Below are positions 2,906-45,701 of a DNA stretch of 64,000 nt, in pieces. The notes beneath the pieces were generated by a model. That model was not told the origin of the DNA and ran no database searches. It saw nothing but the letters and a program-made list of their open reading frames with translations. Each line of letters opens with the position of its first letter. The first letter of the stretch is position 1. Source of the DNA: Sulfuriferula multivorans (GTDB taxonomy: Bacteria > Pseudomonadota > Gammaproteobacteria > Burkholderiales > Sulfuriferulaceae); NCBI RefSeq assembly GCF_003851125.1, contig NZ_BGOW01000020.1:1-64000 (forward strand), read 5' to 3'. The translations under genes were made by a program, and so were the position numbers.

Positions 2906-2951
2906 GCTCTAACGTGTTCGAGTTGAGCGACACCCCGAAGGGGCGTTAGCC
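2906..2951 (-). repeat. Integron recombination site (attI, or a short first attC)
   Basis: On the minus strand CGTTAGAGC (2914-2906) is the junction where the first cassette begins, recognised because its complement recurs as the left core of that cassette's own attC at 2063-2070. Upstream are GGCTAAC (2951-2945) and a short hairpin CGCCCC-TTC-GGGGTG. At about 46 bp the whole is shorter than usual attC sites. The integrase remnant lies 100-150 bp further on and points away, so this is the position where attI is expected. Confidence 0.6.
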
Positions 2952-3012
2952 GGGAGCGCAGCGAGCGGTGTGTAATTCAAAAAAATTATTGCAAATATTT
3001 GTTTTTAAATAG

Positions 3013-3162: not shown

Positions 3163-3205
3163 CTTCTTCCGATAATCGCCCCCAACCCTTCAACCAAAAT
3201 CAGCC

Positions 3206-4027: not shown

Positions 4028-4039
4028 TTTTGTTTCCTT

Positions 4040-5248: not shown

Positions 5249-5279
5249 GGCCGCAAACGATGGAAAAAGCGTAATTATA

Positions 5280-6553: not shown

Positions 6554-6556
6554 GTT

Positions 6557-7237: not shown

Positions 7238-7274
7238 AGTCCGGGCACGAATTACTGGCTACGTTAACCCCTCA

Positions 7275-9017: not shown

Positions 9018-10888
9018 GGCTGTTTTTCACTCTGTTGAAATTGCTGGTGCTGTTTGTACTGATAAAGAAACTTGCGCCGCCACAAGCCGCCTGGGTCATC
9101 CGGGATACGCCGCAGCCATTGTTCGTCTGCCTGTTGCAATTGCTTGCGTTGCTGCGCATCGGTCGCGACTTGCGCATTGCCGGAAGACGCCGGGTTCTGG
9201 TCCGCCGCCTGCGGCAATGGCTGTGCCTGACCCTGAGCCTGTGCCGGTGCGGCCTGGTCCGGGCGCTGTGTTCCTGTCTGCCCGGATGTATTGTTCTGCT
9301 GCTGCCCGGCACCTGGCTTCTGTTTGTCCGTGTTGCCCTGATTCTGTCCGGACTGACCAGATTCATTTTTAGACTGCTGATTGCCCTGCGCCGATTGCGG
9401 CGATTGGCCTGAGGATTTTCCTTGCTGTCCGTTCTGCGAAGAGTGCTGCGGATTACCGGCGTTTTGCTGACTCTGTTGCTGGTTTTTCTGTTGGTTTTTT
9501 TGTTGTTGTGTTTTCAATAATTTTTCAACCAGATTGCGGTTGTAGCTGGCATCGCCCAGCTTGGGGTCGCGTTTCAAGGCTGCATCATAAGCTTGCAGCG
9601 CCTCGGGCAGGCGCCCCAGCTGCGCCAGCGCATTGCCGCGATTGTAATCAGCTTCGGCGGTGTCGATGCCTTTCAGGCTATCCAGCGCAGCCTGGTAATT
9701 GCCGGCGCGATAATCGGCCGCCGCACGCCACTGAGGATCATGGAAAAGTTTGGCGGCAAGTTGCGGTTGTTTGGCATCCATGGCCTGCTGCCCGCGCTGA
9801 TCGTCGCGCTGCCACAGGCTGCTCCATCCAGACGCATAAACCGGGTGCGTCTGCGGCAGGATGATCAGCAGCAACACAACGAGATAGCCACGGCGGAAAG
9901 CCAGCGCGCCGAGCAGCAGTAGCGGCAGCAGCAGCCACGGGCCTTCGTCGCGCCACTGATCGCTCATCAAGCCGTGGACCTTGATATCTTGCTGCTGGCC
10001 TAGTGGGAGCTTGAATGGCGCCAGTAATGCGTGAAAATCGCTGTCGTCGGGACTCAGACGCCGGTAGGCGCCGTGGCCCTGGTGTGCAAGCGTGGCCAGG
10101 CGGGCATCGTCCAGCCGGGGAATGACTATGGCACCGCTGTCGTTGGTCACAAATCCACCCGCAGGATTCGGGATCGGCGCGCCAGTAGGGGTGCCGACAC
10201 CCAATACCGACAGCCGGTGCCCGGCCTCGACCAGATGGCTGATGGCAGTTTTGAGCGAATCGGATTCGCTGCCGTTGAGGCCATCCGTAATCAGCAGCAC
10301 ACCGCCGTGGGCAACGCCGGCCTGCTTCAACAGTTTCTGCGCCAGGCCGATTGCACGACCGGGGTGAGAGCCCTGTGCCGGCATCAACGCGGGGGTGAGG
10401 ACCTCCAGCTGGCTGACGATGGTCTGTGCATCGGTGGTCAGCGGGCTGACCACAAACGGCGCGGCTGCATAGACGATCAGCGCCGTTTCACCTTCCTTTT
10501 GCTGGTTGAGAATATCGCGCAATTTCAGTTTTGCGCGTTCCAGGCGGCTGGGTTTGATATCGGTGGCGTCCATCGAGCGCGACAAGTCGAGCACCAGCAC
10601 CAGCGCCGACTGCTGGCGGAATACCGGTTGCGCCAGTTTCTGCCATGCCGGACCGGCCAGCGCAACAATCGCCAGCACGCCGCCGAGGCCGACAGCAACC
10701 ATGGCCCATGGGCCTTGCCGGGCATTTTTCCCGATCAGCAGATGCGCCAGCAAACGCGGATCGACCACACGCTGCCAGCTGCGGCTGACCAGGCGCCGAC
10801 GCCACATCAGCCAAAGCAACAGGATCAAGGGAAGCAGGGCGAGCAGCCACAGGGGACGCAAAAAGTGAAATGCCGAAATCATTTCCAT
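9011..10888 (-). CDS. batB: BatB-BatC fusion: VWA domain plus TPR domain
   Basis: 625 residues. Two N-terminal membrane helices (~10-29 and 62-80) frame the start. A von Willebrand A domain follows (~93-300) with the MIDAS metal site D-L-S-R-S at 101-105 and LLITDG. A further hydrophobic hairpin (~320-355) leads to a TPR region (~375-465; EADYNRGNALAQLGRLPEALQAYDAAL) and a Gln/Asn/Ser-rich low-complexity stretch (~465-590). In many bacteria the VWA part (BatB) and the TPR part (BatC) are separate genes. I chose ATG 10888, with AAGGAG eight bases upstream. It overlaps batD and lies 4 bases after batA. Confidence 0.9.
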   Translation of the reverse strand: MEMISAFHFLRPLWLLALLPLILLLWLMWRRRLVSRSWQRVVDPRLLAHLLIGKNARQGPWAMVAVGLGGVLAIVALAGPAWQKLAQPVFRQQSALVLVLDLSRSMDATDIKPSRLERAKLKLRDILNQQKEGETALIVYAAAPFVVSPLTTDAQTIVSQLEVLTPALMPAQGSHPGRAIGLAQKLLKQAGVAHGGVLLITDGLNGSESDSLKTAISHLVEAGHRLSVLGVGTPTGAPIPNPAGGFVTNDSGAIVIPRLDDARLATLAHQGHGAYRRLSPDDSDFHALLAPFKLPLGQQQDIKVHGLMSDQWRDEGPWLLLPLLLLGALAFRRGYLVVLLLIILPQTHPVYASGWSSLWQRDDQRGQQAMDAKQPQLAAKLFHDPQWRAAADYRAGNYQAALDSLKGIDTAEADYNRGNALAQLGRLPEALQAYDAALKRDPKLGDASYNRNLVEKLLKTQQQKNQQKNQQQSQQNAGNPQHSSQNGQQGKSSGQSPQSAQGNQQSKNESGQSGQNQGNTDKQKPGAGQQQNNTSGQTGTQRPDQAAPAQAQGQAQPLPQAADQNPASSGNAQVATDAQQRKQLQQADEQWLRRIPDDPGGLWRRKFLYQYKQHQQFQQSEKQPW

Positions 10889-24161: not shown

Positions 24162-24189
24162 ACTTCGCATAATGTATATTATGTTAAAT
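24162..24189 (+). other. dif: dif site: XerCD recombination site of the replication terminus
   Basis: The 28-bp site consists of an 11-bp left arm ending CGCATAA (XerC side), the 6-bp centre TGTATA, and the 11-bp right arm TTATGTTAAAT (XerD side). From memory of the Escherichia coli dif sequence, the centre and XerD arm are identical and only three bases of the XerC arm differ. XerC and XerD resolve chromosome dimers here at FtsK. The site is intergenic, 162 bases after the last gene of the smc group and 50-80 bases from the Mu-like element's end. Confidence 0.9.
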
Positions 24190-24240
24190 AATGTAATTTA
24201 TTGAAGCGATGTGGATCCAGCGAGTAAAATGCGTGACGGC

Positions 24241-24282
24241 GGACACATGGTCTGAAACATCGGGACACATGGAATGAAACAT
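24241..24282 (-). repeat. Tandem end repeats, possible transposase-binding sites
   Basis: GGACACATGGTCTGAAACAT (24241-24260) and GGACACATGGAATGAAACAT (24263-24282) are direct repeats with a 22-base period, 18 of 20 bases equal. Read on the minus strand each is TGTTTCA..CCATGTGTCC. The MuA sites R1 and R2 at the right end of Mu are likewise adjacent ~22-bp repeats containing GTTTCA. Similar TGTTTCA motifs in inverted orientation lie at the other end (35238, 35279, 35362). An insertion-sequence end is the alternative. Confidence 0.5.
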
Positions 24283-24345
24283 TCCAAACCGTCTGTCCAT
24301 GTGCAAAGCTACTTAACACCCTGTGCCAAATAGCGCGCAAATAAC

Positions 24346-24368
24346 AAGGCCGAGAGATACTCGGCCTT
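24346..24368. terminator. Bidirectional terminator-like hairpin
   Basis: AAGGCCGAG (24346-24354) and CTCGGCCTT (24360-24368) pair perfectly over 9 bp with loop AGATA. TGTTTT follows on the plus strand. It would stop transcription leaving the tape-measure gene leftward and transcription from smc rightward. Confidence 0.8.
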
Positions 24369-24534
24369 TGTTTTACTGCTACCGCCTGCGCGGCTCTGTG
24401 GCCGTGGTTTGCGGTTTCCCCATGTGTGCCATATTGCGGGCGCATCCAAGGTTATGGCGCACTTCTCGCCTTGATTGCATAGCCCAGCGGACCCCAGTCC
24501 GCTTAAATTCGAATCATTGGTATCGGTTTAACAA

Positions 24535-26391
24535 TCAATGCCGCTTTGCCTGGCTGGCGTTGTGGCCGTTGACCACGGTAGCGACCTGCTTGCCGTCGAT
24601 GTGGATATTGATGGTTTGCTTGGCGTGCGCAATGCCATCGAGCACTTGCTTGAGCTGCTGAAAATCATAGCCCTTGGTGGCATTCACCAGCGAATCCCCG
24701 CCAAACGCGCGCAGCTGCTTGTCGATCTCGGCACGCTTCGCTTTGCGTGCCTCGTCATCCATGCGCTGCTGCTCCTGGAGCTTGGACAAGCGCTGGTATG
24801 CCTCATGTGCCTGATAGGCAGAATAGGCGACCGTCGCTGCAACCGCAACGGGTAGGCCAGCGGCCACCAATGGCAGCGCTTTGGCCGCCTTGGTTGCTGT
24901 ACCGCTGCCGCCAGGCACGCCTGGAATCGCAGGTACGCCGGCGGGCTTCGGCCCCGAAAATAGCCGCCCTATGCCAGCCGCCGCTGTGAATGCGCCAACT
25001 GCAACAGTTGCGGCATACAGCGCAGCAGTGAATCCAGGGAAGGCTTCAGCGCCTTTGTTAACGCCGTCCAGTAAAAAACCAAGCGGCTTATCGAGTGCGC
25101 CCAATGTATCCATCGCCGCCAAAGCTTTCTTATTGCCTACCTGCTCGGCTTTGTAATCCAGGGTGTCGGCAACCGTGCCAAAACTGGTTTCCCCTTCCTT
25201 GCCATTTTCAGCCGTTACCGTTTTTTTGATCTGTCCATACTTGTCTTTTTGCTGAATCATGGCGATCAAGGCCATAAGCGCCTGGCGATCCTGCACGGTG
25301 TTACCAATACCTTTTGCCATCATGAGATCGGCCATCGCACCATAAGTATCGCCTTGCTCTGTCCCCGTTTGCTTTTCGGATTTAGCCCGAAGCTCCAGAT
25401 ATTTCTTGTCTTTTTCACCAACGGTACTGACTAACGCGACAAATGCGTCGAGTGGGTTCATTCCTTTCGCACGTGCAGCAGCCAAGCTGCCGGATAGATC
25501 AATCCCGAGTTTTTTAAAATCTTTGGAAGTATCTTGGGAGTTGATCTTGGCCAGCAGATTAACCAAATTATTGCCCGCCTCATCAGCACTACCCGCAGTG
25601 ATGCGCGATACTTGATTGGCAGAAACAAGTGCTTCAAATCCCTTCATCCCCTTCATGCCCTGACCGCCAGCCAATGCCATCTCTTGAGGCAGCCATTTGG
25701 CCATGTCATTGAGCTCGAATCCGCCCTCCTGCCCGCCCTTGATTGCCTTTGATAACATCGCTGGAATTTGCGCATCTGTAATTCCCATGCTCTGCTTGGC
25801 AGCAATCACGATCTTGGCAAGGTCCTGGGGATCGGCCCCTGTTCCAGTAGCGTATTTTTGCAGCGTTGGCAGCAGGCTAAGCGAGCTGTTAATGCCAGCC
25901 TGGCCCTGACCCATCGCGCCCGAACCGATCAATTCATTCAGTGTTTCCGCCGCCTGTTCGGGCGTCCCGCCACCTTGCTTCACAGCACTGCGAATGGCCG
26001 CATCCATTTTGGATTTACCAGCAATCCTGCCAGCCACATCACGGTCGGAATAAGCAGTATTGGCCATAATCGCCAGGCGACGGTCATAAGCCATCGGACG
26101 TTCAGCGGCGCTTTTCAGTACATAGCCGCCTGCGAATGCAGCAGCACCAACCTGGCCCACTTTTTGTAACACCGAAATAGATGCCTTGGCAGCGCCCTGC
26201 ATGGAACGCAAGGCTGCTGTCATACGCTCGATCGCGGTGGGTTTGATCCGCCTCGTGGCGTTAGCAATCCTATCCATGGATTTCGCCACGTTGCTGGATT
26301 CCTGCTGCACGGATTTCATGGCGGACTTCAAGCCCACGCTCATCTGGTCATTGAGCTTGAGCAATAGCTGCAATTCCAGGTTATTTGACAC
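24535..26391 (-). CDS. Phage tail tape measure protein
   Basis: 618 residues. The start NLELQLLLKLNDQMSVGLKSAMKSVQQESSNVAKSMDRI is typical of Mu-like tape measures. A helical region and the TP901-type core follow (SAVKQGGGTPEQAAETLNEL, GAMGQGQAGINSSLSLL). Two hydrophobic helices lie at ~455-475 and ~505-530. A charged helix and the usual end (NIHIDGKQVATVVNGHNASQ) complete it, so the protein is full-length. Tape measures set tail length and help DNA entry. It starts with GTG at 26391, overlapping the frameshifted chaperone by 11 bases. In Mu it is followed by DNA circularisation and baseplate genes; here nothing follows. Confidence 0.9.
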   Translation of the reverse strand: MSNNLELQLLLKLNDQMSVGLKSAMKSVQQESSNVAKSMDRIANATRRIKPTAIERMTAALRSMQGAAKASISVLQKVGQVGAAAFAGGYVLKSAAERPMAYDRRLAIMANTAYSDRDVAGRIAGKSKMDAAIRSAVKQGGGTPEQAAETLNELIGSGAMGQGQAGINSSLSLLPTLQKYATGTGADPQDLAKIVIAAKQSMGITDAQIPAMLSKAIKGGQEGGFELNDMAKWLPQEMALAGGQGMKGMKGFEALVSANQVSRITAGSADEAGNNLVNLLAKINSQDTSKDFKKLGIDLSGSLAAARAKGMNPLDAFVALVSTVGEKDKKYLELRAKSEKQTGTEQGDTYGAMADLMMAKGIGNTVQDRQALMALIAMIQQKDKYGQIKKTVTAENGKEGETSFGTVADTLDYKAEQVGNKKALAAMDTLGALDKPLGFLLDGVNKGAEAFPGFTAALYAATVAVGAFTAAAGIGRLFSGPKPAGVPAIPGVPGGSGTATKAAKALPLVAAGLPVAVAATVAYSAYQAHEAYQRLSKLQEQQRMDDEARKAKRAEIDKQLRAFGGDSLVNATKGYDFQQLKQVLDGIAHAKQTINIHIDGKQVATVVNGHNASQAKRH

Positions 26392-26865
26392 GCTTTTTCC
26401 GCCTTGTACTGGTGTAGGTTTTAGTATTTCCGTCTGATGACGGATTGCTGCGCGGGCCCGACAGCACGTCTATGATCGCTGCCGCGTGAGCCTCGGTTAA
26501 CAGGTGTGGATCGGGATATCCATGATGACGCAGCACCATCTCTAACTCGGTGTAAGGCTTGAGCTTTGACTCAAGCCTTTCTGCTTTTTTCCAACCTCAT
26601 CCTGCGCGGCGAAGATCGGTTCGATGTCATCTTCTGGCAACGCCAGCAACAACTCGCCTGTAATCTCTTGCTTTTCCAGCGTACCGAGCGATTCAATCTG
26701 TGCGGCCGCCTTGAACATACGCAAGCGCAAATTGGATGATTCGGGTCCGGCGGTTTCGATAGCTTCAATAGCGTCGGCAATCGTCGGGGCACGCATCACA
26801 AAATCGCGATGCGTAACGCCGTCGCGCTCTACTCCAAAATTCAGCGAACCATTGACCGTAATCAT
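26381..26865 (-). CDS. Tail-assembly chaperone made as two products by -1 frameshifting
   Basis: In the zero frame the gene gives 107 residues (26542-26865; ITVNGSLNFGVERDGVTHRDFVMRAP), a Mu-like tail assembly protein. At 26590-26584 lies the slippery heptamer A-AAA-AAG in the right phase. A -1 slip after codon 94 continues through AERLESKLKPYTELEMVLRHHGYPDPHLLTEAHAA to TAA at 26383-26381, giving a 161-residue product. This mirrors lambda G/GT and the paired chaperones of Mu, which bind the tape measure before tube assembly. It is located immediately before the tape measure gene, as expected. Confidence 0.85.
26556..26590 (-). promoter_or_regulatory. Programmed -1 ribosomal frameshift signal
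   Basis: On the minus strand the heptamer AAAAAAG (26590-26584) is followed by a 6-base spacer (CAGAAA) and then a perfect 8-bp hairpin GGCTTGAG-TCAAAG-CTCAAGCC (26577-26556). Phase is ..GGA AAA AAG.., the arrangement that allows both tRNAs to re-pair after a -1 slip. Spacing of 5-8 bases to a stem is standard for efficient bacterial frameshift sites. Confidence 0.88.
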
Positions 26866-27113
26866 TCAATCACCTCGCGTAGCCCAGCCGGGCGAATCGT
26901 AAATTTCTTCATAGTTAAAGCCTCGCTTACCTTGTTGATGATTTCACAGCGAGTGGCCTTGGAATGCTCCACAGACGCCGCAAGACGATCAGCCAAGCTG
27001 GGCCCATCGCCATATAGAAACTTTGATAACGTGGGGTTCCCAAGCTCGGACAGCTGCTTTCCGAGTTGACCAACCGCCGCGAGCTCCAGGTGCAGTCTAC
27101 GGGTGCTGTTCAT
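26862..27113 (-). CDS. Small phage protein, function unknown
   Basis: 83 residues, starting MNSTRRLHLELAAVGQLGKQLSEL and containing LSKFLYGDGPSLADRLAASVEHSKATRCEI. It is probably all-helical, with no membrane segment and no recognised family. It overlaps both neighbours by 4 bases (ATGA at each junction), so it is a genuine link of the late operon just before the tail chaperone. Confidence 0.6.
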   Translation of the reverse strand: MNSTRRLHLELAAVGQLGKQLSELGNPTLSKFLYGDGPSLADRLAASVEHSKATRCEIINKVSEALTMKKFTIRPAGLREVIE

Positions 27114-27631
27114 GCGACAGCACCCACTGCTTCACAGAAGCTGCACCCAGCCACGGTTTGATAAAGGTGGATGCGTCGGAGATGCCCCAAAGCGTTTTGG
27201 CAGGCTTGCCATTCATGCTGCTGTGCCTGGTCAGTCGGCCCATTCATGCCCGCGAGAGATTCAGAGAAACTGGCGTCCCCTTTCGTGTATTCGGCCATAT
27301 GATCAGGATTCCGCTTGAGGTAATCGAATATGTGTCCCATCGCCTCTTTCACTGGCAATTTTTCATGCGCCGCATATTCGTAAACCCACTCCGCCAATTC
27401 AAGTTCTTCCGGCGTGAGTACAACACCATCGGGCAACTTCACGGTGCTCATGTTCCTGGAGCGGCCAAAGGCCCTTCCAATGGCTCTGTCACGTTCCCAT
27501 GCCGCGTCGATTTCGCTTGGCGAACGGCGTTGTACGGAGGCCAGCTTGTCAGCCAGGGCACCGAGTTTGTCTGCATGCTGGCCTGCCGTGAGTTTCTTCT
27601 GCTGGGTCGGCTGGGCAAAGGTCAAGACCAT
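27110..27631 (-). CDS. Phage protein, function unknown
   Basis: 173 residues with AAGGAG seven bases before ATG 27631. The N-terminal half is charged and helical (LADKLASVQRRSPSEIDAAWERDRAIG). The middle has STVKLPDGVVLTPEELELAEWVYEYAAHEKLPVKEAMGHIFDYLKRNP, a compact helical module with an EF-like acidic turn. The end contains two cysteines (GCSFCEAV). No family is recognised. It is coupled by ATGA overlap to the next gene and placed where Mu carries head-tail genes, but it does not resemble them. Confidence 0.6.
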   Translation of the reverse strand: MVLTFAQPTQQKKLTAGQHADKLGALADKLASVQRRSPSEIDAAWERDRAIGRAFGRSRNMSTVKLPDGVVLTPEELELAEWVYEYAAHEKLPVKEAMGHIFDYLKRNPDHMAEYTKGDASFSESLAGMNGPTDQAQQHEWQACQNALGHLRRIHLYQTVAGCSFCEAVGAVA

Positions 27632-27641
27632 GATCCACTCC

Positions 27642-28406
27642 TTAAATCAGCGTAACGCCGCTTGCCCGCAACTCTTCCAGCAAGTCATCAGCGGCTTGGT
27701 TGGTCGCGCCGCTGACGTATGCCAGGGAGTCGCTAAAAATGGAATCCGGCCAGTTCGGATTGAATTGCCCCTCACAAGCGGGAAGCTGAAACACAGGCAG
27801 GTTGATTGGCACGCCGCCACTGATGATTCCTGCCGGTTTCAAGCCCTTGCTCTTGAGCAGCCCATCCAGCGCGGTCAGGCGCAGATAAGCCGCTTTTACC
27901 GCAAGCGCTGCCTTAACATATTCACGGCAAGTGGTTTCAGCCTGGTTCATCACCACGGCGCGAAGAAGGCTCGTATCCCTGCTATGCAGGGCATGCAATT
28001 TCCCCTGGGCTTCTGCCAATTTGCGCTGGAGGCCGGCAACCGCTTGCGACGCTTCATTCGCAATGCGCTTTGCTGTTGCCAAAGCTTCTTGGTGAGCCTT
28101 TTTCTCGGCCTCGCTCTTCGTATCGAAAGCCTGTACCTCGCCGTGAGTTGCCTGGCCGACAGCTACGGCAGCCAATAGGTCTTCACGGGTGCGGGAGAGA
28201 TGCTCGATGCTCGGCACAGCGGCCGCCGCTTCGCGGACTTCTCGCTGCTTGGTGGCGATCAAGTCTTCGAGGTTGATGATGGTGTTGCCCAGGCATTCGA
28301 TATCTACCTGGTGAGCCAGCAGCAGGGAAAGCTCGGGCTGCTTGCTGGTGGCTTTCTGGCCGTTATTCCCGGCCGTTTTCGGTGTCATGTTCATGGGGAT
28401 TCTCAT
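27642..28406 (-). CDS. Coiled-coil phage protein, function unknown
   Basis: 254 residues. Residues ~30-165 are predicted by eye to form a long coiled coil (LIATKQREVREAAAAVPSIEHLSRTREDLL, EAEKKAHQEALATAKRIANEASQAVAGLQRKLAEAQGKL). A globular end follows (GIISGGVPINLPVFQLPACEGQFNPNWPDSIF). Its ATG overlaps the stop of the Mor gene (ATGA); an inner Met five codons on is also possible. No membrane part or enzyme motif is seen. It could be a structural or scaffold-like protein; this is a guess from shape. Confidence 0.6.
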   Translation of the reverse strand: MRIPMNMTPKTAGNNGQKATSKQPELSLLLAHQVDIECLGNTIINLEDLIATKQREVREAAAAVPSIEHLSRTREDLLAAVAVGQATHGEVQAFDTKSEAEKKAHQEALATAKRIANEASQAVAGLQRKLAEAQGKLHALHSRDTSLLRAVVMNQAETTCREYVKAALAVKAAYLRLTALDGLLKSKGLKPAGIISGGVPINLPVFQLPACEGQFNPNWPDSIFSDSLAYVSGATNQAADDLLEELRASGVTLI

Positions 28407-28804
28407 TTTGGTGATTGATTTAAAATCTCTCGGATGCTTCTTTCTGTCAGCCGATACTTGAGGGCAAGTTGGCGGTGCGATATGCCCAACGCGCGATCAG
28501 CAAAAATCAGCGTGTTACGCTGCCGGATAAGCAGCTTGACGCCACGGGGAATTTCCACGGACAAACCGCTAAATTCCCCTGCCAATTTTTGCGCGATTTC
28601 CTGCCCCAGCAATTGGCACAAGGGATGTTCTGGCTTGATCGTGGCCGGTAGGTACAGGCGTGTTCCGCCGTATTGCGTAACCAGCTTGGCGGTGGCTTCT
28701 TCGCCGATAAGCTGACAAACGTCCTGAAAGACGCCAATGTAATTAACTGCCCGGGCTCGGGGTAAAACAAAACTTCGCATGCCGTTCCCATCGCTTCGAT
28801 TCAT
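28403..28804 (-). CDS. mor: Mor-family transcription activator
   Basis: 133 residues. The YGGTRLYLPATI segment (~46-57) is the conserved Mor/C dimerisation strand. The C-terminal helix-turn-helix is RALGISHRQLALKYRLTERSIREIL. In Mu, Mor switches on the middle promoter that leads to late genes. Here it heads a run of overlapping genes (to the tape measure), so it probably sits within the transcript it influences or activates a promoter upstream in 28805-29057. Confidence 0.88.
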   Translation of the reverse strand: MNRSDGNGMRSFVLPRARAVNYIGVFQDVCQLIGEEATAKLVTQYGGTRLYLPATIKPEHPLCQLLGQEIAQKLAGEFSGLSVEIPRGVKLLIRQRNTLIFADRALGISHRQLALKYRLTERSIREILNQSPK

Positions 28805-29057
28805 GGCGGTATTGTTTCCGCATGAGGGCGTTGGGTTAAGGCGGAAATCCTACCGGGAAGGATTTCCGCCTATTGAGGCGGGGAGGATCGGGAAGAGAAT
28901 GAGGACTGGCGCGCCGTGTTTCTGTCTACCACCTACCCTTCCCGGAGGCAGAACCGTCAACGGCGCGCCTTCTCAAAGGCTGGTTTGGCGGGGCTACTGC
29001 TTCGTTAGATTTACTGGTCATCAATCAGAATATCAAGCAATCCCCCCCGCCGGGGGG
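28805..29057 (-). promoter_or_regulatory. Structured leader before the Mor gene
   Basis: 253 bases without a normal gene but with strong structure. A perfect 11-bp hairpin lies at 28840-28870 (GGCGGAAATCC and GGATTTCCGCC). Two GGCGCGCC boxes at 28909-28916 and 28961-28968 lie in partly complementary arms. A GC hairpin (C6/G6) lies at 29043-29057, directly after the stop of the gene before, probably its terminator. A 31-codon frame (28926-29021, minus; MTSKSNEAVAPPNQPLRRRA, ending GKGRW) lies between them and might be a leader peptide. The layout recalls the ash/icd control regions of P4-like prophages; this is a resemblance only. Confidence 0.45.
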
Positions 29058-29555
29058 TCACCGCTTCCCATCACTGTCACTTGCCATTTCCAGGGCACGC
29101 CCAAGATGGCCGTTCACAATTGCCAGCAGCGCATATAAATCATCCCGATTAACCATGTCCAGACCCGACTCATTAGCTGGCACGTACGCGGTCGGGACAA
29201 GCAGGCCCTTGATGGCATTCATCGCGCGGTGAGTTTCATGGGCTGCATCAATGGCGTCAATATGGCGTCTATCAGAGCTTTCCTGCATTTTTTTGCGTTC
29301 CTGCCACTCCAGGTCGGCTTCTGAATTCATCTCGACCAGTATCTCAAGAAGATCTTGTCGCGCTGCGGGATCTCCGTCCGGTATTGCGCTGGGCTGGATT
29401 GATTTGGCTCGCTGCTTGAATTCCAGCAGGTCAGCCAACCCGGTACGGTGGTTGCGGCTGCATTTGTCACCAGCATCTGTAATGCATTCTGGAGATTGGC
29501 TGGCAGAATAAACTGGGGCGTCTGTTTCGGGCGTTGTGGTGGTACGGTCAGTCAT
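29058..29555 (-). CDS. Phage early protein, function unknown
   Basis: 165 residues, Thr/Ser-rich at the start (MTDRTTTTPETDAPVYS), then mostly helical (LADLLEFKQRAKSIQ, LLEILVEMNSEADLEWQERKKMQE, NRDDLYALLAIVNGHLGRALEMA). There is no membrane segment or known motif. It lies between GemA-side early genes and Mor, a region of variable accessory genes in Mu-like phages. A strong GC hairpin follows its stop. Confidence 0.55.
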   Translation of the reverse strand: MTDRTTTTPETDAPVYSASQSPECITDAGDKCSRNHRTGLADLLEFKQRAKSIQPSAIPDGDPAARQDLLEILVEMNSEADLEWQERKKMQESSDRRHIDAIDAAHETHRAMNAIKGLLVPTAYVPANESGLDMVNRDDLYALLAIVNGHLGRALEMASDSDGKR

Positions 29556-29590
29556 GGATATTTACCTGGTAAGTGGTTGTATTTTCCGCT

Positions 29591-29713
29591 TCACGCTATA
29601 AAACGGGTGAACGGAACCGTGTAGGTTGGGTAGACCGGATACAGACCTTCCTCGCCTGTTGCGTTAAAAACGCCAGAAAAGCCCATTAAAGCGTTTTTAC
29701 TGTTCCAGACCAT
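29591..29713 (-). CDS. Possible 40-residue phage peptide
   Basis: A short frame beginning M-V-W-N-S-K-N-A-L-M-G-F-S-G-V-F and rich in aromatic residues (YPVYPTYTVPFTRF). GAGG lies six bases before its ATG. It fills most of an otherwise empty 209-base gap between two early genes on the same strand. There is no homologue I can name; it could be chance. Confidence 0.3.
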   Translation of the reverse strand: MVWNSKNALMGFSGVFNATGEEGLYPVYPTYTVPFTRFIA

Positions 29714-29764
29714 CTCGGCCTCAACCTGTAAAAACACCCCCGTTAACCACCCGTTAAATTGCGT

Positions 29765-30031
29765 CTAATGCGGTGTTTTATTGGCCTCTTGCCTTGGTCT
29801 GGCTATTTCCTTGTCAGCACCCAAACCATGGCCATCTAACACGGCATCAAAAAAGGGCTTGCTGAGGATTTCCAGCAGTTGCGCGATCCCGTCGAAGGTG
29901 CTCTCATCGAGATGATCTTTGTCAACGTTGCGCATTAGGTCGCCCAGTGCGGCCAGCCCAGCAGTGGCGTTTTCCATGCTATAGAACAGTTCGCTGTTGA
30001 TGGATACTTCGTTACGCTTTACTTCACTCAT
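29765..30031 (-). CDS. Small acidic phage protein, function unknown
   Basis: 88 residues from ATG 30031, which has AAGGAG nine bases upstream; the longer frame to 30097 has none. The body is helical and acidic (LFYSMENATAGLAALGDLMRNVDKDHLDESTFDGIAQLLEIL) with a Pro/Lys tail. Family not recognised. It lies 70 bases after GemA in the early operon. Confidence 0.6.
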   Translation of the reverse strand: MSEVKRNEVSINSELFYSMENATAGLAALGDLMRNVDKDHLDESTFDGIAQLLEILSKPFFDAVLDGHGLGADKEIARPRQEANKTPH

Positions 30032-30101
30032 CTTATTTCTCCTTGGTTGCACGTTCGTTTTTTCGTTCAATCCAGTTACCCAATGCTGCAATGACACGCT
30101 T

Positions 30102-30557
30102 TTACTTTTCGCGCTTGTTTTGCTTGTATCTCAGCCACCTTTCCAGTCCGTTCATGATGTTCGAAATGCCGTCACGCGTGAGAAAACGCGGGTTTTCCAC
30201 CTTGGCGATTCTCTTGCAGAAGGTGACAAAGGCGGGATCATCGGGCTTGCCGGTCAAGCCGCATTTTTTCGCCAGCCCCAGGGCGGCGCTCCATTGCCTT
30301 CGGGTGGGCCGATCCGGGCCGCTGCCGCCTGGCGGCGAGGTGACAGCCCCGGCTTGATCCAGTGCGCCCAGGTCGCGCAATTCATCAGCAAGGGCGGATA
30401 GTTCAGCCTCGCTGCAATCCTTGCAGCTGCGCTTGCCGGTGTGCCTTTCCAGCCAGGCGCGGTATAGATCATCCTCCCAGCCAAGGCGCTTTTGGCCGAT
30501 TTTGATAAGCTGGATCAGGCGGTTTTTCCCGGTTCGTTTCATTCCATTTGTCCGCAT
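30102..30557 (-). CDS. gemA: GemA-like early regulatory protein (Mu gp16 family)
   Basis: 151 residues. LIQLIKIGQKRLGWEDDLYRAWLERHTGKRSCKDCSEAEL is the conserved GemA N-terminal module with CxxC. TRRQWSAALGLAKKCGL and FVTFCKRIAKVENPRFLTRDGISNIMNGLERWL follow. In Mu, GemA alters host gene expression and DNA supercoiling. A low-complexity Pro/Gly linker (TSPPGGSGPDRP) separates the two modules. Confidence 0.85.
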   Translation of the reverse strand: MRTNGMKRTGKNRLIQLIKIGQKRLGWEDDLYRAWLERHTGKRSCKDCSEAELSALADELRDLGALDQAGAVTSPPGGSGPDRPTRRQWSAALGLAKKCGLTGKPDDPAFVTFCKRIAKVENPRFLTRDGISNIMNGLERWLRYKQNKREK

Positions 30558-30616
30558 GCTTACGCCCCCCTAACCTTTTCTCTTATCGATTAATGCCGAA
30601 AATTTAACTGGTGGCA

Positions 30617-31627
30617 TCACCAGCCCCTCAAGGTTGATATGTCGATAACGTCGAAATCAAGTAGCGAGCGCTTAAAGCCGGATACCATAGCGCGCAACTG
30701 GCCGGGCCCCGTTCCACGTTCCACGCACCATTCACGCTCTTCCTTGCCCGATACACCCCAGGCTGCCATGACAAGATCAATGTCGTGTTCGGTAACGCTT
30801 TTGACCTCCACGCGCCATTCCTTCATGCGGCTCAATAGCTGATCGTGTTTGCCGCCTGATATGCGCCGGTACACCTCGCCATTGTTGAGTAAGGCAATGC
30901 CGAATAACCCCTTGTCCACATAGCGGCGCAACCCATTCACGATACGAATGCCGTGCTCGAGCTTGGCGTCCGCGAGATGTTGTGCTTCATCAATAATCAG
31001 TATTCCGCCTAGGCCGCGCGTCTTTTCTTCTATGTGGAAATCGATCTCGAAGTCATTCCTTGACTTGTCATGGCGGTACTGACTATCCACATTTGCAGCA
31101 ATCATCGACAAAACAGCCCTGGTCGTCAGCCCGAATTCACTCAACCCAACAGACCAGACAGGGCAATCCAATCCTTCCTCCTTGCGACAGCGGTTTATAT
31201 ATTCATCCAACGCCTGTGTTTTACCCGCGCCAGCCGGTACGCATATATCGACCATCGCCGGTACGCGGCGCGCCATCTTGAAACCCTTGAAAACTGATTG
31301 CATGACACTAGTTTCGACTCGACCCGGATTACGTTTTTTTTCTTCCATGCGATCTGCATCAAGCCCTGCAAAGTATGTTTCCAGGACGCTTTCTATTTTG
31401 TCTGCCATAGACTGATCGCCAATGCGTCCGCGACTGCCATCGCGCCACCATTCGGGATTGGCTGCCCATTTTTCCAAGTGTCCTGCCACAAATGCTGGCC
31501 CGGCTTCATTCGCGATCCGTTCCAGCGTGAAGCCGTTTGATATTTCATCAATCATGCGGTTTTTAAGCCGCTCCCATCGTTCAAGGTCAATTTCCTGTTT
31601 GATCGGATCATCTATTTCAGATAGCAT
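30617..31627 (-). CDS. Mu B-like AAA ATPase, transposition target selector
   Basis: 336 residues from ATG 31627 (AGGAG upstream). An N-terminal helix-turn-helix region (FTLERIANEAGPAFVAGHLEKW) precedes an AAA+ core with Walker A V-P-A-G-A-G-K-T (~residue 135), Walker B LIIDEAQHL (~212) and sensor GIALLNNGEV. The C-terminal domain (MVSGFKRSLLDFD) is small. MuB forms ATP-dependent filaments on DNA, delivers targets to MuA and keeps the element from inserting into itself. It follows A by 84 bases. Confidence 0.9.
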   Translation of the reverse strand: MLSEIDDPIKQEIDLERWERLKNRMIDEISNGFTLERIANEAGPAFVAGHLEKWAANPEWWRDGSRGRIGDQSMADKIESVLETYFAGLDADRMEEKKRNPGRVETSVMQSVFKGFKMARRVPAMVDICVPAGAGKTQALDEYINRCRKEEGLDCPVWSVGLSEFGLTTRAVLSMIAANVDSQYRHDKSRNDFEIDFHIEEKTRGLGGILIIDEAQHLADAKLEHGIRIVNGLRRYVDKGLFGIALLNNGEVYRRISGGKHDQLLSRMKEWRVEVKSVTEHDIDLVMAAWGVSGKEEREWCVERGTGPGQLRAMVSGFKRSLLDFDVIDISTLRGW

Positions 31628-31711
31628 TTGAACTCCTCTCTGTTTCACCAGCGCCAGCGGGTTTCCGTCCCGCAAAACGCACCAAAAAGCACTGCCAACG
31701 CCGTCCAGGTT

Positions 31712-33877
31712 TCAGCCTGTACGGCGTTTTCTCTCGCCTTCCTCCTTTCTTGCATCGTTTTCTTCCTTGATCCGTTGCAACTCTTCGCGGCGGCCTTTCT
31801 CGGCTTCACGCTTGCGCGACGCCTCCTTTTCCGCGGCTTCGCGCCTTTCCGCTACAGCGCGCGCCAAGGCTTCCCGACGTTCCGAAGTCGCGGCATCCGG
31901 CCCGGCGCCTTTCAGCTCAGGAGGCGCGCGCCGGGCTTCGATCAACGGTGCGGACTGCGGGATACCCAAGGGGTTAAATGCTGATCCAGGCGCGGGAAGT
32001 GCCAGTGGCGATGCGGCATTGATGGCCTTTAGGGTGCCCTTGACGGGTTTCATGTACCCATTTTTTGCCTGAACGTGCGCTGCCGCTTGCTCGCTTGCCC
32101 CGGTAAACGGTAGGGCATCAATCGGCTTGCAGTCACATACATGGACATCGCCGTCATACACGGAGACCTGTGCAGCGGGGTTATCCGGGTGATACCAGAC
32201 AGCATATTTTTTATCACGAGCAGCCAGAGACAGGGCCGCGAATTGCTCGCTCCAAAATCGCTTCTTCCCGTATCCCTCAATCTGGAATTCAAATGTCGCT
32301 TCGGCCTTGTCCGGTTTCACCATCTTGACGGCCATCAACAGCAGGCGCATATGGGCAGGATCGGGCTTGCGGATATCGGCGGTCGGCAGCATTTCCGCGT
32401 AAACTTCGGCCGGGGTGCGATTGTTCATGCCGTTGCCACGGTGCTTCTTTTCCATGTTGAAGTGGTGGAGCGCCTCTGCCAGCAAGGCACCAAGCAGCGC
32501 AATCGGCGCGGGCTTTTTCCCGTTGCAGTCTTCCGGTTTGGAAACCGTGTCCTTGCCAACGTAAGTGCCTTGAAACTCCTGGCGCTTGTCGAGATTGTCG
32601 GCAACCCACCTCCAAAATGATTCAATCGGCTTATCTCGCCCCCTGCCCGGTGGCGACCATTCCATTTTTACGCCCATTTGTGTTGCCACGCCCACAGGCT
32701 CAAACGGTTTCACGCCCCAGCGATAGCGGGTTTTCTGTTGACCGGTAAAAGTCTTGTTCGCATACTCCCGGCCGTTGTCGATCTTACATTTTCTCGGCAC
32801 GGCGCCGCAGTTTTCAACCGCATCGCGGAAGCAGGCCATTACTAGTTCACCGCACGGGTCTTTGTAGCCCTTGGCCGATAGCACCAAACGGGTTCGCACC
32901 TCCCGCCATACCACGACAAACGGGCGGCCTGTGCTGCCATCTGGCCATTCACACCTTACGTCCATCCGGCGACCGTCCGATTCCCACATTTCATGCAACG
33001 CAAGGCTGCTGTAATCCCGCTCTACCGTCGGAAAACTCGCCTCTAGCGCCTTTGGTCCCTGCCTGCCCAGGATCACCAGCGGGGCCGGTTCGGCTGCCAA
33101 GCGGCGCGATACCGTTTTGTTACTGGGGATCATCCACCCCTTACCCTCGCCTTCCTTGCGCGCTAGGCGGACAAGAACAGAGGTTTTGGTTTCGCTCGTT
33201 GTCAGGTGCCGTGCCAGAATCCATTCGTAAGCCTCCTCGGTGAATTCCGCGTCCTTACCCTGCCCCACATAGCGCGGGGCCAACAGCGGCAACCAGTTTT
33301 CACGCGGATGCCCATCAACCCGGACGCGATAGCGCCAAAGCGTGGCCTTGGACGCGCCGAATTGCGCCTTGATTGAAGCTACCGCCATTTCAACGGAAAC
33401 CCCTGAATCACGCATTTCATAAAATGAGTCAACGGCAGCCAGTGCTGCTTCGGCGCGGCGCTTAATCTTGCTGCCGTGCTTTTCGTAGGCAGCCCACAAC
33501 AGGCTGTATTCCTCGGCAGACTCGACGATGTTCGGGTTACGGTGGGTTTGCTTCCTCACCAGCGTGGCCACCGGGCCAGATTGCAACGAAACTATGCTGT
33601 TCGGATTGATAAAAGGATTGACCTTCAAAGCTTCGATTGCCTGGCTGGGCGTGCTGGCCTGTTGTTTTGCCCATTCCTGTTGCGCTTTTTTGGTCAGACT
33701 GGAAAGGAGGATTTGGTAACTGCCGCGCCCGTCGGACTCGTCTTTTCTGGCGGTGTATTTGCCGGCTTTGACGTGACGTTGTAGAGTTTTCTTGGAAATG
33801 CCAGAAAGTGAGGCGACTTCACTTGTGGCAAGCCAAACCTCATTACCCTGAATATTTGCGTTATCCATATGATTCAT
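31712..33877 (-). CDS. Mu A-like DDE transposase
   Basis: 721 residues. An N-terminal winged helix (LATSEVASLSGISKKTLQRHVKAG) binds DNA. The RNase H-like core carries acidic residues in ESDGRRMDV (~300), KIDNGREYANK (~366) and DKPIESFWRW (~420), the DDE triad. A beta-barrel follows, then a Glu/Arg-rich C-terminal helix (~650-720) of the kind that contacts MuB and ClpX. The family opens ends and joins them to target DNA. Length and motifs look intact, so the element may still transpose. Confidence 0.93.
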   Translation of the reverse strand: MNHMDNANIQGNEVWLATSEVASLSGISKKTLQRHVKAGKYTARKDESDGRGSYQILLSSLTKKAQQEWAKQQASTPSQAIEALKVNPFINPNSIVSLQSGPVATLVRKQTHRNPNIVESAEEYSLLWAAYEKHGSKIKRRAEAALAAVDSFYEMRDSGVSVEMAVASIKAQFGASKATLWRYRVRVDGHPRENWLPLLAPRYVGQGKDAEFTEEAYEWILARHLTTSETKTSVLVRLARKEGEGKGWMIPSNKTVSRRLAAEPAPLVILGRQGPKALEASFPTVERDYSSLALHEMWESDGRRMDVRCEWPDGSTGRPFVVVWREVRTRLVLSAKGYKDPCGELVMACFRDAVENCGAVPRKCKIDNGREYANKTFTGQQKTRYRWGVKPFEPVGVATQMGVKMEWSPPGRGRDKPIESFWRWVADNLDKRQEFQGTYVGKDTVSKPEDCNGKKPAPIALLGALLAEALHHFNMEKKHRGNGMNNRTPAEVYAEMLPTADIRKPDPAHMRLLLMAVKMVKPDKAEATFEFQIEGYGKKRFWSEQFAALSLAARDKKYAVWYHPDNPAAQVSVYDGDVHVCDCKPIDALPFTGASEQAAAHVQAKNGYMKPVKGTLKAINAASPLALPAPGSAFNPLGIPQSAPLIEARRAPPELKGAGPDAATSERREALARAVAERREAAEKEASRKREAEKGRREELQRIKEENDARKEEGERKRRTG

Positions 33878-33898
33878 TGTGTTTTTTTGTATGTCGCC

Positions 33899-34195
33899 TC
33901 ACTGAGGCGATTGAGGCGACATTAGGGTTGTGGATTTCGCCTCAAGTCGCCTCACGTCGTGGCATGCTTTTCCGGCTTCTGTTTTCCCCTCGTTGAAGCG
34001 TCGCCAAATTTGCCAACCGCGATCATTGCCTGAAAAATAGGCATCGAATTCGACTGTCCCAGCCCGGTAAGGAACGTGGATACGGCGGCCTTCAATCTTG
34101 AACAGCAACACGTCAATAGCCCCCTGGCGATACACGATGCTTCGCTTGTCTCCATGAGCAAGGGCGGCATCCACAATTGCTTCGGCGCGGCTCAT
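33899..34195 (-). CDS. Small phage early protein, function unknown
   Basis: 98 residues: helix AEAIVDAALAHGDKRSIVYRQG, beta-like VLLFKIEGRRIHVPYRAG, and a helical end (GWQIWRRFNEGKTEAGKA). Its ATG overlaps the Ner stop by 4 bases and the gene ends 21 bases before the transposase start. Its place between ner and A is used by small accessory genes in several Mu-like phages. Family not recognised. Confidence 0.6.
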   Translation of the reverse strand: MSRAEAIVDAALAHGDKRSIVYRQGAIDVLLFKIEGRRIHVPYRAGTVEFDAYFSGNDRGWQIWRRFNEGKTEAGKACHDVRRLEAKSTTLMSPQSPQ

Positions 34196-34410
34196 GATTG
34201 CGGCCCCTCGACAATCTCGCCATGTTTGATACCCAGCAAAACTGCGGCTTTGTGACTAACACCAATGCGCGCTTTCCGCCGATCGTTTAGCACTCCGTAA
34301 ACCACGCTAGGCGGTAAGCCGTGATCTTTCGACCACTTTGAAATGCTAATTCCTTTGCTGGCGAAATCTGCCAGCACGTCTTCGCGGGTTTTAAGCTGTT
34401 TCGTTTCCAT
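34192..34410 (-). CDS. ner: Ner-like DNA-binding regulator
   Basis: 72 residues with AGGAGG five bases before the ATG. The helix-turn-helix is GISISKWSKDHGLPPSVVYGVLNDRRKARIG, as in Ner/Cro-type phage proteins. In Mu, Ner shuts down early transcription and represses the repressor gene. It is first in the leftward early operon and diverges from the repressor across the operator region. Confidence 0.85.
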   Translation of the reverse strand: METKQLKTREDVLADFASKGISISKWSKDHGLPPSVVYGVLNDRRKARIGVSHKAAVLLGIKHGEIVEGPQS

Positions 34411-34442
34411 ATAGCCTCCTGTTATGATGGGTAATCACATAA

Positions 34443-34488
34443 TACGCATATGCGTACATTATGTACGAAATGTACGCATATGCGCACA
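34443..34488. promoter_or_regulatory. Paired palindromic operators between ner and the repressor gene
   Basis: TACGCATATGCGTA (34443-34456) is a perfect 14-bp palindrome. A second copy of the core, ACGCATATGCGC within TGTACGCATATGCGCACA (34471-34488), lies about 30 bases away, near three helical turns, on the same face of the helix. The element lies between two divergent regulators, where the phage repressor and Ner should bind. AT-rich -10-like sequence (CATAAT) overlaps the first copy. Confidence 0.7.
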
Positions 34489-34506
34489 TTCGGTCAAGAG
34501 GTTTTT

Positions 34507-35094
34507 ATGCCTGATTTTGGTAAACGGCTAAGGCAAGAGAGGCTGCGCCTTGGCTTCAGCCAAGCAATGTTTGCTGAAGCTTGCGGAATTAAAAGGACAG
34601 CTCAAACAACTTACGAGTCCGGGAAGCGCTCCCCGGATGTGGATTACCTTGAAGCGGCCGGAAATCTTGGCATTGATATTGATTACGTTATATTCGGTAT
34701 TCCAAATCCAGAAACGCCTGTGGATTGTCCGTTTGTTCAGGAACAGCATCTTGATTTGCAATACGTTTTTACGCTACAACATTGCCGGGATCATGCGGCG
34801 GGGGAAGGTTTAACAAGCTCACCTATGGCCGTTCGATGGTGGAAGGCGTGCGATGAATGTCCGAAAAACCCGATTAAGCACGGCCTTCCTATTGCACAGA
34901 CACCAGCGGATATAGACTGGCCTTTGCTCCTGGCATTACTAGAAGGGCTGGAAACGGCATTGCTAAGGGCGGGGCTGGCGATGGTGCCAGCGAAGAAAGC
35001 CCATGCCGTTGTAATGCTCTATCGCGCCTTCAAGGCCAGCGGCAAGGTCGATCAGAAGATCATTGAAGAAGCGGTCCAATTGGCAGCAGGCTGA
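34507..35094 (+). CDS. Phage repressor, XRE-type
   Basis: 195 residues. The N-terminal helix-turn-helix is GKRLRQERLRLGFSQAMFAEACGIKRTAQTTYESGKRSPD, then DYLEAAGNLGIDIDYVIFG, a classic XRE repressor layout. The C-terminal half is an oligomerisation region with a CDECP segment. ATG 34507 has AAGAGG upstream; the frame back to 34450 crosses the operators. It diverges from ner and would hold the element silent. Confidence 0.88.
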   Translation: MPDFGKRLRQERLRLGFSQAMFAEACGIKRTAQTTYESGKRSPDVDYLEAAGNLGIDIDYVIFGIPNPETPVDCPFVQEQHLDLQYVFTLQHCRDHAAGEGLTSSPMAVRWWKACDECPKNPIKHGLPIAQTPADIDWPLLLALLEGLETALLRAGLAMVPAKKAHAVVMLYRAFKASGKVDQKIIEEAVQLAAG

Positions 35095-35441
35095 GAGTTG
35101 CACCAGGTGGTTGTTTGCGTGGTGGTCGAATATGTCATTGCATAGCCAGGCGAACCGCCAGCCGTGCTTAACGGTCACTCTTTGTGGGGTATTTGGCACA
35201 ACCAATAGCAGCAAGCTACCATTTTCATGCTATTTTTTGTTTCATACCGTCTGACTATTTAACCGAAAACCGCTAAAATGTTTCAAACCTTAAAATGCGC
35301 TTACCTTGGGCTGAACTCAATATCCACGGACATCCCGGCTTATCCCTAGTCTTCCCACTTTTGTTTCAAATGATATGTCCCCCCCCAAACACCTGTCTGC
35401 TCTACTGCTTCCGACACTTACACATTACGATTCTTAATACT
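35095..35441. other. Intergenic region: element end and leader of the pigment operon
   Basis: No gene is supported over 347 bases. Three TGTTTCA motifs on the plus strand (35238, 35279, 35362) are inverted relative to those at the other end of the element; the last reads TGTTTCAAATGATATGTCC, close to the right-end repeats. The 9-mer TAAAATGCG at 35291 repeats the one at 24225. A run of eight C (35379-35386) lies 55 bases before the ACP start. The promoter of the aryl polyene operon should be here but I cannot point to it. Confidence 0.5.
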
Positions 35442-43631: not shown

Positions 43632-45701
43632 ATGCACATAAAAGCGTTACACATAAAAAATTTCCGCGCAATCGAAGATATAAATGTCGATTTCGATAAC
43701 CGTGTAAATATCATTGTCGGACCAAATGCCGTAGGAAAGACAACTGTCTTAGAGGCAATTAGATTAGTCAAAGCATTACTTTTCCCACGTACTCAGAACG
43801 AAAGCATGCAAGCACTTTTCGCTCTAGGTGCAGCCTCGCCACACCTTCCTCAACAGATCACAATTCCAGCCTTGGCTCGGAATCCAAGTACTCCAGTAGT
43901 AATTAGTATTCGATTTGAATTGAGCAAAGACGAAATCACGTGGCTAGAAAACTCTGTCCCCATAATTGCAAGAGGAATTATTCAAGGAAGGATGGGACAA
44001 GCCTTCTCAAACCCAACGACGCTGATTAACTTCCTTGGAACTCCTCAAGGGCAACAGGCAATAGAGGCGGCGCAAAAGGAAGTAAATTCAGCAATAAACG
44101 ATTCCAAAAACGATGGTAGACAATGTCGAGTTGAATTAACGATCTCGCCAATGACAGGTCCACAGTCGACTGATAACCCCGTTTGGCCAACGCTCTTAGC
44201 TATGCTCGATCAGCGCCATCCGCCGGGTTTGACTAGTTTTAGCTACTTTCCCGCCGACAGAGCATTACCCCAAGGTGAGCAGCCCGTCCAATTAGGCATG
44301 GCGGATGCTCAAGCACAATTGGAATCTCATAGTTCTCAGCCGCAAACGAAATATACAAGGCTAAAGAATACAATATTTAGCGCGATGATTATGAGTGAAA
44401 GTGGGCGAGAAGAGCTGACTGCGGAATTTGAACGCATATTTCAGGGCATTTTAAAGGGGCGGCGCCTCAAAGGATTTGGGCTTAATCATATTGGCTTACT
44501 TTCTATACTGGTCGAAGATACTGAAACAGGCCGGACCTTTGAGATCGATGGAATGAGTAGTGGAGAAAAAGGCCTTATCCTCACCTTTCTTCTCATCGAA
44601 AGATCGGTTGCTCAAGACGGCTTGATATTACTAGATGAGCCGGAATTGCACCTTAACCCTGCGGTATGTAAGGACCTTTTATCTTTCCTCGTTGATGGTT
44701 ATGCAGTTCGGAAGAATTTACAGGTGTTTGTGTGCTCTCATTCGCCAGAAATTCTGGCAGGAGCTTTCGATAATGACGAATGTTCGCTTTACCACCTTGA
44801 ATCTGAGCTGATGCTCACTAAGGTCCGTCGTCAAGATCACACAGTAATTGCCGAAGCACTGCGACGTCTAGGGACTTCAGAAAGCGAAGGGCTTTTATTT
44901 AACGGCACAATTTTCGTCGAAGGAATCGATGACGTAAGCCTATTAGAGGCTGGATTCAGCTCTATTCTACGCAGGTATAAAATTAAGGATCTTGGTGGAC
45001 GGCGCGAGATCGAGAAGGAAATTAAACAGCTTCAAGATGCTGAGAATAGGGGCACAGAATTATCATCTCGCTATTTTATTTTTGATCGAGACGAATTACC
45101 AACTGATCTCAAAAACACCAAGTCAACAAAGATACTTCAATGGGAGCGTAGATGTTTAGAAAATTATTTACTCGACATCGACATACTTACTGATTTATTT
45201 ATGAATAGTGAAGTCGTTAAGAACCCACTAAATAACTTAGGCGAAGTACAAAAAAAGCTTCGCGAATTGGCATTTGGGCAGCTAGATGATTTCGTCGCCA
45301 AGCAGATTTATTCGAGATACCAATATATTGATCCTGGTATCCGTGCAACGGAAATCCAAGGGAAAAGTTTGAACAATATCGCCGAGTTACTTCATGAGCG
45401 TCTGCTTAAAATAATGAACCAATACTCGACAATTGATGAGAGCAATTGGACGAGCGACTTTCTAAAAAAATGTTCAGAAGAACGTCAAAACTTGACCTCT
45501 GTTTGGGAGGCCAAGTGGTTGAACGAGTGTGATGGAAAAAGACTTTTTAACGAGATTTGTCAGAAAGTTCAACCAAAAATGGGGCCAAAAAAGTTCAAAA
45601 TCCGAGTCATGAACGAAATGCGATTGAAACCGTCTGAAAATTGGCGTGCTATCAATAGTCTTCTCAGCGACCTACTGGCCAAAAATAGCGAAACCAAGTG
45701 A
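43632..45701 (+). CDS. AAA ATPase fused to a DUF4435/TOPRIM-like domain, PARIS-like defence candidate
   Basis: 689 residues. The N-terminal SMC/ABC-type ATPase has Walker A G-P-N-A-V-G-K-T (30-37), signature MSSGEKGLIL (~306), Walker B LILLDEPELHLNP (~330) and switch His VCSHSPEIL (~369). The C-terminal part begins TIFVEGIDDVSLLEAG (~425), contains FIFDRDE (~483) and ERRCLENYLLD (~510). The E...DxD pattern plus ENYLL is the signature of DUF4435, a TOPRIM-like domain. This is the architecture of merged AriA-AriB in PARIS anti-phage systems; an OLD-type ATPase-nuclease is the alternative. Base composition is visibly more AT-rich than the pigment genes around it, so it is an import. Confidence 0.8.
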   Translation: MHIKALHIKNFRAIEDINVDFDNRVNIIVGPNAVGKTTVLEAIRLVKALLFPRTQNESMQALFALGAASPHLPQQITIPALARNPSTPVVISIRFELSKDEITWLENSVPIIARGIIQGRMGQAFSNPTTLINFLGTPQGQQAIEAAQKEVNSAINDSKNDGRQCRVELTISPMTGPQSTDNPVWPTLLAMLDQRHPPGLTSFSYFPADRALPQGEQPVQLGMADAQAQLESHSSQPQTKYTRLKNTIFSAMIMSESGREELTAEFERIFQGILKGRRLKGFGLNHIGLLSILVEDTETGRTFEIDGMSSGEKGLILTFLLIERSVAQDGLILLDEPELHLNPAVCKDLLSFLVDGYAVRKNLQVFVCSHSPEILAGAFDNDECSLYHLESELMLTKVRRQDHTVIAEALRRLGTSESEGLLFNGTIFVEGIDDVSLLEAGFSSILRRYKIKDLGGRREIEKEIKQLQDAENRGTELSSRYFIFDRDELPTDLKNTKSTKILQWERRCLENYLLDIDILTDLFMNSEVVKNPLNNLGEVQKKLRELAFGQLDDFVAKQIYSRYQYIDPGIRATEIQGKSLNNIAELLHERLLKIMNQYSTIDESNWTSDFLKKCSEERQNLTSVWEAKWLNECDGKRLFNEICQKVQPKMGPKKFKIRVMNEMRLKPSENWRAINSLLSDLLAKNSETK

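Follow-up and report, generated by a model that had tools for sequence, protein, structure and literature searches.

Mu is the textbook example of a transposon that inserts nearly at random. The dif site, at which XerC and XerD resolve chromosome dimers, is also used by filamentous phages and certain other mobile elements. The res-site hunters of the Tn5053/Tn402 type target site-specific recombination sites, inserting within or close to them with a typical orientation (PMC7765201). Here we analysed a 64,000-nucleotide stretch of Sulfuriferula multivorans DNA (the window; positions refer to all of it, and L and G numbers denote the compared loci and genomes) that carries an 11.2-kb element with Mu-type genes. 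The element is most likely a Mu-derived transposon without a capsid, one of a betaproteobacterial family whose members insert beside dif. A reading of the letters alone, called here the original prediction, had described a compact Mu-like element; insertion beside dif, the feature that most sets this class apart, was not part of it. Our search of the open-access literature turned up no earlier account of Mu-type elements inserting at dif or of satellites of the Mu type.

Position of the element beside dif

The late end of the element lies 44 bp from dif, whose XerD arm faces the element. The same arrangement was found in relatives. Since family members were collected by MuA search, independently of dif, the association is not circular. 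The late end is 56 bp from dif in L041, 39 bp in L044 and 53 bp in L061, and dif is single-copy in the genomes of all three. L067 lies 60 bp from a diverged dif-like site with 6 mismatches, and L066 lies 57 bp from half of a dif-like site. All six members with a locatable late end thus have it 39-60 bp off the XerD arm of a dif or dif-like site, on the same side and in the same orientation, with the late end toward dif. The chance probability for the four canonical dif cases is about 2e-20. The spacers of the six members have no evident common sequence. When the pattern of dif plus element end was searched in 369 genomes from the wider class, only the window matched.

The L066 genome has a second copy of the 57-bp flank, which sits beside a full dif, runs on without an element and diverges from L066 exactly at the insertion point. 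This second copy is on another contig (L082), and the element-bearing copy is beside the half site (L066 17471-17498). Genes of conjugative-element type, recognised by eye, are present at both flank sites.

Such a pattern could arise without targeting if the element inserted anywhere and only the insertions beside dif were tolerated or lasted. Terminus regions gather mobile elements, and we counted in favour of this explanation that about a quarter of dif sites adjoin mobility genes (PMC2731167). However, tolerance would not fix the side, the orientation or the 39-60 bp distance in six out of six members, and we consider survival alone improbable.

Element ends and the empty site

End-sequence comparison places the termini of the element at 24234 (TGACGGCGGACA) and about 35387 (TGTCCCCCCCCA), a span of 11,154 bp. 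In the family, the late end starts with TGACGGCGGACA, after which CATGG and TGAAA-type repeats usually come. At the repressor end, TTTCAAA-type sites precede a terminal TGTCCCCCGTAA or TGTCCCCCCTCA, and the two ends form an imperfect inverted repeat. The sister genome G001 has the empty site, in which the same dif and 44-bp spacer are followed by the right flank. This bears out the left end of the original prediction (24234), whereas its right end, 35290, has to be moved outward to about 35387. The 9-bp repeat TAAAATGCG, with one copy adjoining the left end and another near 35290, was rejected as a target duplication; it is misleading because its right copy falls within the element. Exact 5-bp target duplications were observed in L041 (TACCC) and L061 (GCTTC), and to this extent the matching ends and duplications expected of a distinct element class were found.

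These junctions also bear on the idea that host XerCD integrated the element at dif, as it does many filamentous phages, and that the Mu genes are incidental. The fixed orientation next to dif would agree with it, as would the inovirus genes that adjoin the L044, L068 and L069 elements. Yet the locus has a single dif and not two flanking copies, the junction falls 39-60 bp outside dif, and the empty site shows that both dif and the spacer are host DNA. We therefore rejected XerCD integration, on the single dif, the spacer and the Mu-type 5-bp duplications of two members, and regard it as very improbable. Insertion beside dif is of the transposition type.

Gene content of the element

From right to left, a divergent repressor is followed by Ner, a small open reading frame (ORF), MuA, MuB, GemA, two small ORFs and Mor, and then by a coiled-coil protein, two family-less proteins, a tail assembly chaperone and a tape measure protein (Table 1). 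The original prediction held that the transposition, control and Mor genes are intact, and the profile matches agree with this. The MuA catalytic residues D301, D367 and E419 are invariant across the MuA alignment, and the MuB Walker A motif reads, by eye, GAGKT. No gene is broken, all frames being open, and the predicted ATGA links between late genes are present at 28406/28403, 27113/27110 and 26865/26862.

The tape measure is full-length, as had been claimed. It has 618 amino acids (aa); its homologues in four tail clusters from related bacteria have 581-692 aa, and that of phage KS10 has 811 aa. It aligns end to end with a 620-aa homologue of nearly equal length from a full tail cluster in the same-genus genome G011, and against all these homologues both termini match with no large internal gap. 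A shortened tape measure was ruled out by these full-length alignments.

Capsid genes, already reported missing, were not recognised between the element ends in profile searches, and neither were portal, terminase, sheath, tube, baseplate, fibre or lysis genes. The family-less ORFs of the window had no match to virion-structure families in these searches; this includes the three proteins at 26862-28406, which had been suspected as possible head genes. The claim that these three have no known family stands at the level of profiles, but the coiled-coil one does have a relative: it shares 26% identity with an L047 protein that adjoins a gpI (head-protease) domain.

Table 1. Coordinates of the element, its genes and the adjoining host DNA in the window.
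Feature	Position	Strand	Basis or remark
dif, XerC/XerD chromosome-dimer resolution site, host DNA	24162-24189	+	perfect match to ACTTCGCATAATGTATATTATGTTAAAT
Host spacer between dif and element, 44 bp, last bases ATGCG	24190-24233	.	comparison with empty site
Late (dif-side) element end, TGACGGCGGACACATGG, repeated TGAAAC-type sites	24234-24300	-	common to L041, L044, L061, L066, L067
Tape measure protein, 618 aa	24535-26391	-	phrog_794, E 8e-130
Tail assembly chaperone, 107 aa	26542-26865	-	phrog_508, E 5e-19
Protein, 83 aa	26862-27113	-	no family match in profile searches
Protein, 173 aa	27110-27631	-	no family match in profile searches
Coiled-coil protein, 254 aa, first gene past Mor	27642-28406	-	coiled-coil proteins occupy same place in relatives
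Mor, late/middle transcription activator	28403-28804	-	PF08765, phrog_836
ORF, 165 aa	29058-29555	-	no family match in profile searches
ORF, 110 aa counted from GTG	29765-30097	-	no family (96-aa form searched)
GemA (Mu gp16-like)	30102-30557	-	PF06252, phrog_286
MuB-type AAA+ ATPase, target-selection partner of transposase	30617-31675	-	phrog_296, PF13401
MuA-type DDE transposase	31712-33877	-	phrog_310, E 9e-93
ORF, 98 aa	33899-34195	-	no family match in profile searches
Ner-like regulator	34192-34410	-	phrog_925, TIGR04111 BcepMu gp16 family
Repressor	34450-35094	+	divergent from Ner; helix-turn-helix repressor families (profile search)
Repressor-side element end, TTTCAAA-type sites, last bases TGTCCCCCCCCA	35265-35387	+	one mismatch to TGTCCCCCCTCA of relatives

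Outside the element, the window has a low-GC gene at 43632-45701 (42-50% GC compared with about 60% around it). It encodes a 689-aa ATPase, OLD-type by eye, and is possibly an acquired defence gene.

A family of compact elements

The MuA searches returned related loci in Gallionella, Ferrigenium, Nitrosomonas, Methylophilaceae, Oxalobacteraceae and one viral contig. Relatives on long enough DNA have the repressor, Ner, MuA, MuB, GemA and Mor, followed by a coiled-coil protein. In L041, L061, L064 and L069 all that comes after the coiled-coil gene is the protease domain of gpI, the head protease of Mu. It is 203-229 aa long and was identified by the PF10123/phrog_328 profile in L041 and by alignment in the other three. 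Past this domain comes the end of the element, the end of the contig, or a stretch of host or unrelated genes. L066 has a weak gpI match, the late part of L067 consists of the coiled coil only, and that of L044 of the coiled coil and a 100-aa protein. In L068 MuA is broken and no Mor was found.

The 11 MuA proteins form one clade (support 100/100), separate from Mu and other phages of full length. A capsid gene was seen in no clade member, several of them being on short contigs, and we found no full-length relative whose deletion would yield the window element. The suggestion of a distinct compact class is borne out by this clade and by the same gene order in several host families. A further compact element, L047 (213-7334), has a different transposase, BcepMu-like by eye, together with Mor, a gpI domain and a coiled-coil protein. 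The compact state is thus that of a lineage, and it may have originated more than once, L047 being possibly an independent compaction.

A decaying Mu-like prophage, left after internal deletions and lying at dif by chance or because the spot is tolerant, would explain why the gene set is a subset of that of a KS10-type phage, in which gpI directly follows Mor, and why the right end in the window looks damaged. However, the frames are open throughout, the same compact order is found in several host families, the MuA proteins form their own clade, the genes are under purifying selection (see below), and decay would not give a nucleotide-scale position and fixed orientation at dif. We regard decay as an improbable explanation.

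A C4 antisense RNA (RF01695) was found in four relatives (L041 12558-12639, L061 14240-14322, L067 8378-8459 and L068 7172-7253), after MuB/GemA and upstream of Mor where Mor exists. The RNA family search found none in the window. In L064 and L069, cargo ORFs are flanked by look-alikes of this RNA, seen by eye.

Searches of viral contigs with the window tape measure, the coiled-coil protein and the element end patterns gave no useful match, and the same was true for the coiled-coil proteins against phage records. Among plasmids the transposase matched only distant MuA proteins, and the two that we examined sit in larger Mu-like regions. The predicted structure of the relatives' coiled-coil family had a mean pLDDT of 61, and a profile search of the family against the PDB returned nothing significant.

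The operon downstream of Mor

Between L041 and L061 the ratio of nonsynonymous to synonymous substitution rates (dN/dS) was lowest in gpI, at about 0.08; MuB followed with about 0.14, the coiled coil with about 0.18 and MuA with about 0.19. These figures are rough owing to the high dS. Between L064 and L069 synonymous sites were saturated, and the ratio of nonsynonymous to synonymous differences (pN/pS) was 0.32-0.34 for gpI and the coiled coil and 0.38 for MuB. The coiled-coil and protease genes of the relatives are therefore under purifying selection as strong as that on the transposase, with no sign of decay. In the window, the tape-measure operon has open frames whose products are about 40% identical to phage homologues.

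Other than on the proteins of another phage, a protease that comes without scaffold or capsid has no evident use, and neither has a chaperone with a tape measure when tube and sheath are missing. For this reason we guess that the operon most likely acts on the particle assembly of an infecting phage, either exploiting or blocking it.

If the phage is exploited, the element could be a helper-dependent satellite that replicates upon phage infection while Mor turns on the late genes. The coiled coil and protease, or the chaperone and tape measure, would then redirect assembly of the helper particles to package the element. Such a life would be compatible with dif targeting. It would account for a Mor-led morphogenesis operon that is under selection in relatives although virion genes are absent, and that recurs in L047 with another transposase type. 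On the other hand, a search of nine genomes carrying clade members gave no Mu-type major capsid gene (PF10124), with G132 as the positive control, which leaves no resident helper of the Mu type available in them. No packaging site or helper was identified, and the tape measure is of normal length with no sign of tail resizing. We consider a satellite possible, with the balance leaning somewhat against it.

Discussion

Several of our observations weigh against a family directed to dif. L066, with its half site, and L067, with its mismatches, are weaker dif cases than the other four, and the distance to dif varies by about 20 bp between members. L064 has no dif-like site in the roughly 1.6-kb flank before mraZ, its late end not being located. 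The six-member count covers neither L064 nor L060, L065, L068 and L069. The window copy, L044 and L066 have no matching 5-bp duplications. The right flank in the window is about a dozen bases shorter than in the sister genome and has no copy of ATGCG, which is why we think that a small deletion probably occurred at this junction. The missing duplications in L044 and L066 are consistent with rearrangement after insertion. Finally, the selection figures come from members with the protease-type operon, and the late operon of the window is of a different type.

For a family that inserts beside dif, we propose that MuB and/or MuA is recruited by a dif-bound complex (XerD, XerCD-FtsK or a partner). 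Recruitment by a bound complex is suggested because the side and orientation are fixed and the distance is nearly so, while the spacer sequence is not kept. It would be analogous to the way Tn5053-type elements are drawn to resolvase res sites. Since insertion 39-60 bp away leaves dif whole, dimer resolution should continue, and dif may thus be a harmless chromosomal home.

The use of dif by other mobile elements might also offer a chance of hitch-hiking, given that users of dif adjoin several members: inoviruses at L044, L068 and L069 and conjugative-type genes at L066. The absence of a dif-like site in L068 and L069 weakens this idea.

At L044, an inovirus prophage (825-9577; rolling-circle initiator, Zot-type protein) occupies the XerC side of the same dif and has a half dif site (825-852) at its other boundary, so that two kinds of mobile element share one dif. 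In L068 (2072-13487) and L069 (147-12942), filamentous-phage genes for a replication initiator and a Zot-type protein directly abut the Mu-type control and transposition genes. Either a hybrid element or the insertion of a Mu-type element into an inovirus could explain this; in L069 a scaffold gap lies at the join.

Taken together, a satellite-like Mu family that finds XerCD-dif through protein contact, uses its minimal Mor-led operon to exploit or obstruct invading phages, and travels on dif-using phages and conjugative elements is a picture that we put forward only tentatively, as rather unlikely in its entirety. A natural Mu clade that keeps to one side of dif, one orientation and nearly one distance would show that a host recombination complex can steer Mu-type machinery, much as Tn5053 is steered to res. 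How a complex of protein and DNA is recognised as a target by an AAA+ partner, a long-open question, would become testable in a small two-protein system. The selected capsid-less operon also points to an undescribed satellite or anti-phage module.

Comparison with known systems

The element has the order repressor, Ner, MuA, MuB, GemA, Mor in common with Mu, KS10 and BcepMu, and the 5-bp target duplications of Mu-like phages also occur in two members of its family. In KS10 gpI directly follows Mor, but there it has its scaffold part and a whole head and tail behind it. The element has no capsid, packaging, baseplate or lysis genes and only one or a few late proteins, and since virion genes are absent it fails as a complete Mu-like phage. 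Its family inserts beside dif, whereas Mu inserts almost anywhere.

The P4, PICI and PLE satellites are similarly small and also combine a late activator with one or a few morphogenesis genes. The element differs from them in its Mu-type transposition; no integrase or known satellite marker was recognised in it and no helper was identified. With CTX-type filamentous phages and Xer-using islands it has the dif location in common. Unlike in these elements, dif is not the crossover site, the ends lie 39-60 bp off and the element has its own transposase.

The Tn5053/Tn402 elements resemble the family in having a DDE transposase with an AAA+ partner, 5-bp duplications, and a position and orientation set by a recombination site. 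Their target, however, is a serine-resolvase res site and not XerCD dif, and the family carries MuA, MuB and Mor genes with no recognised tniQ or tniR (profile searches found neither among the window proteins). The element is not a res-site hunter proper, because both its gene set and its target differ. We place it among the Mu-type transposons, with a target habit so far known from Tn5053-type elements.

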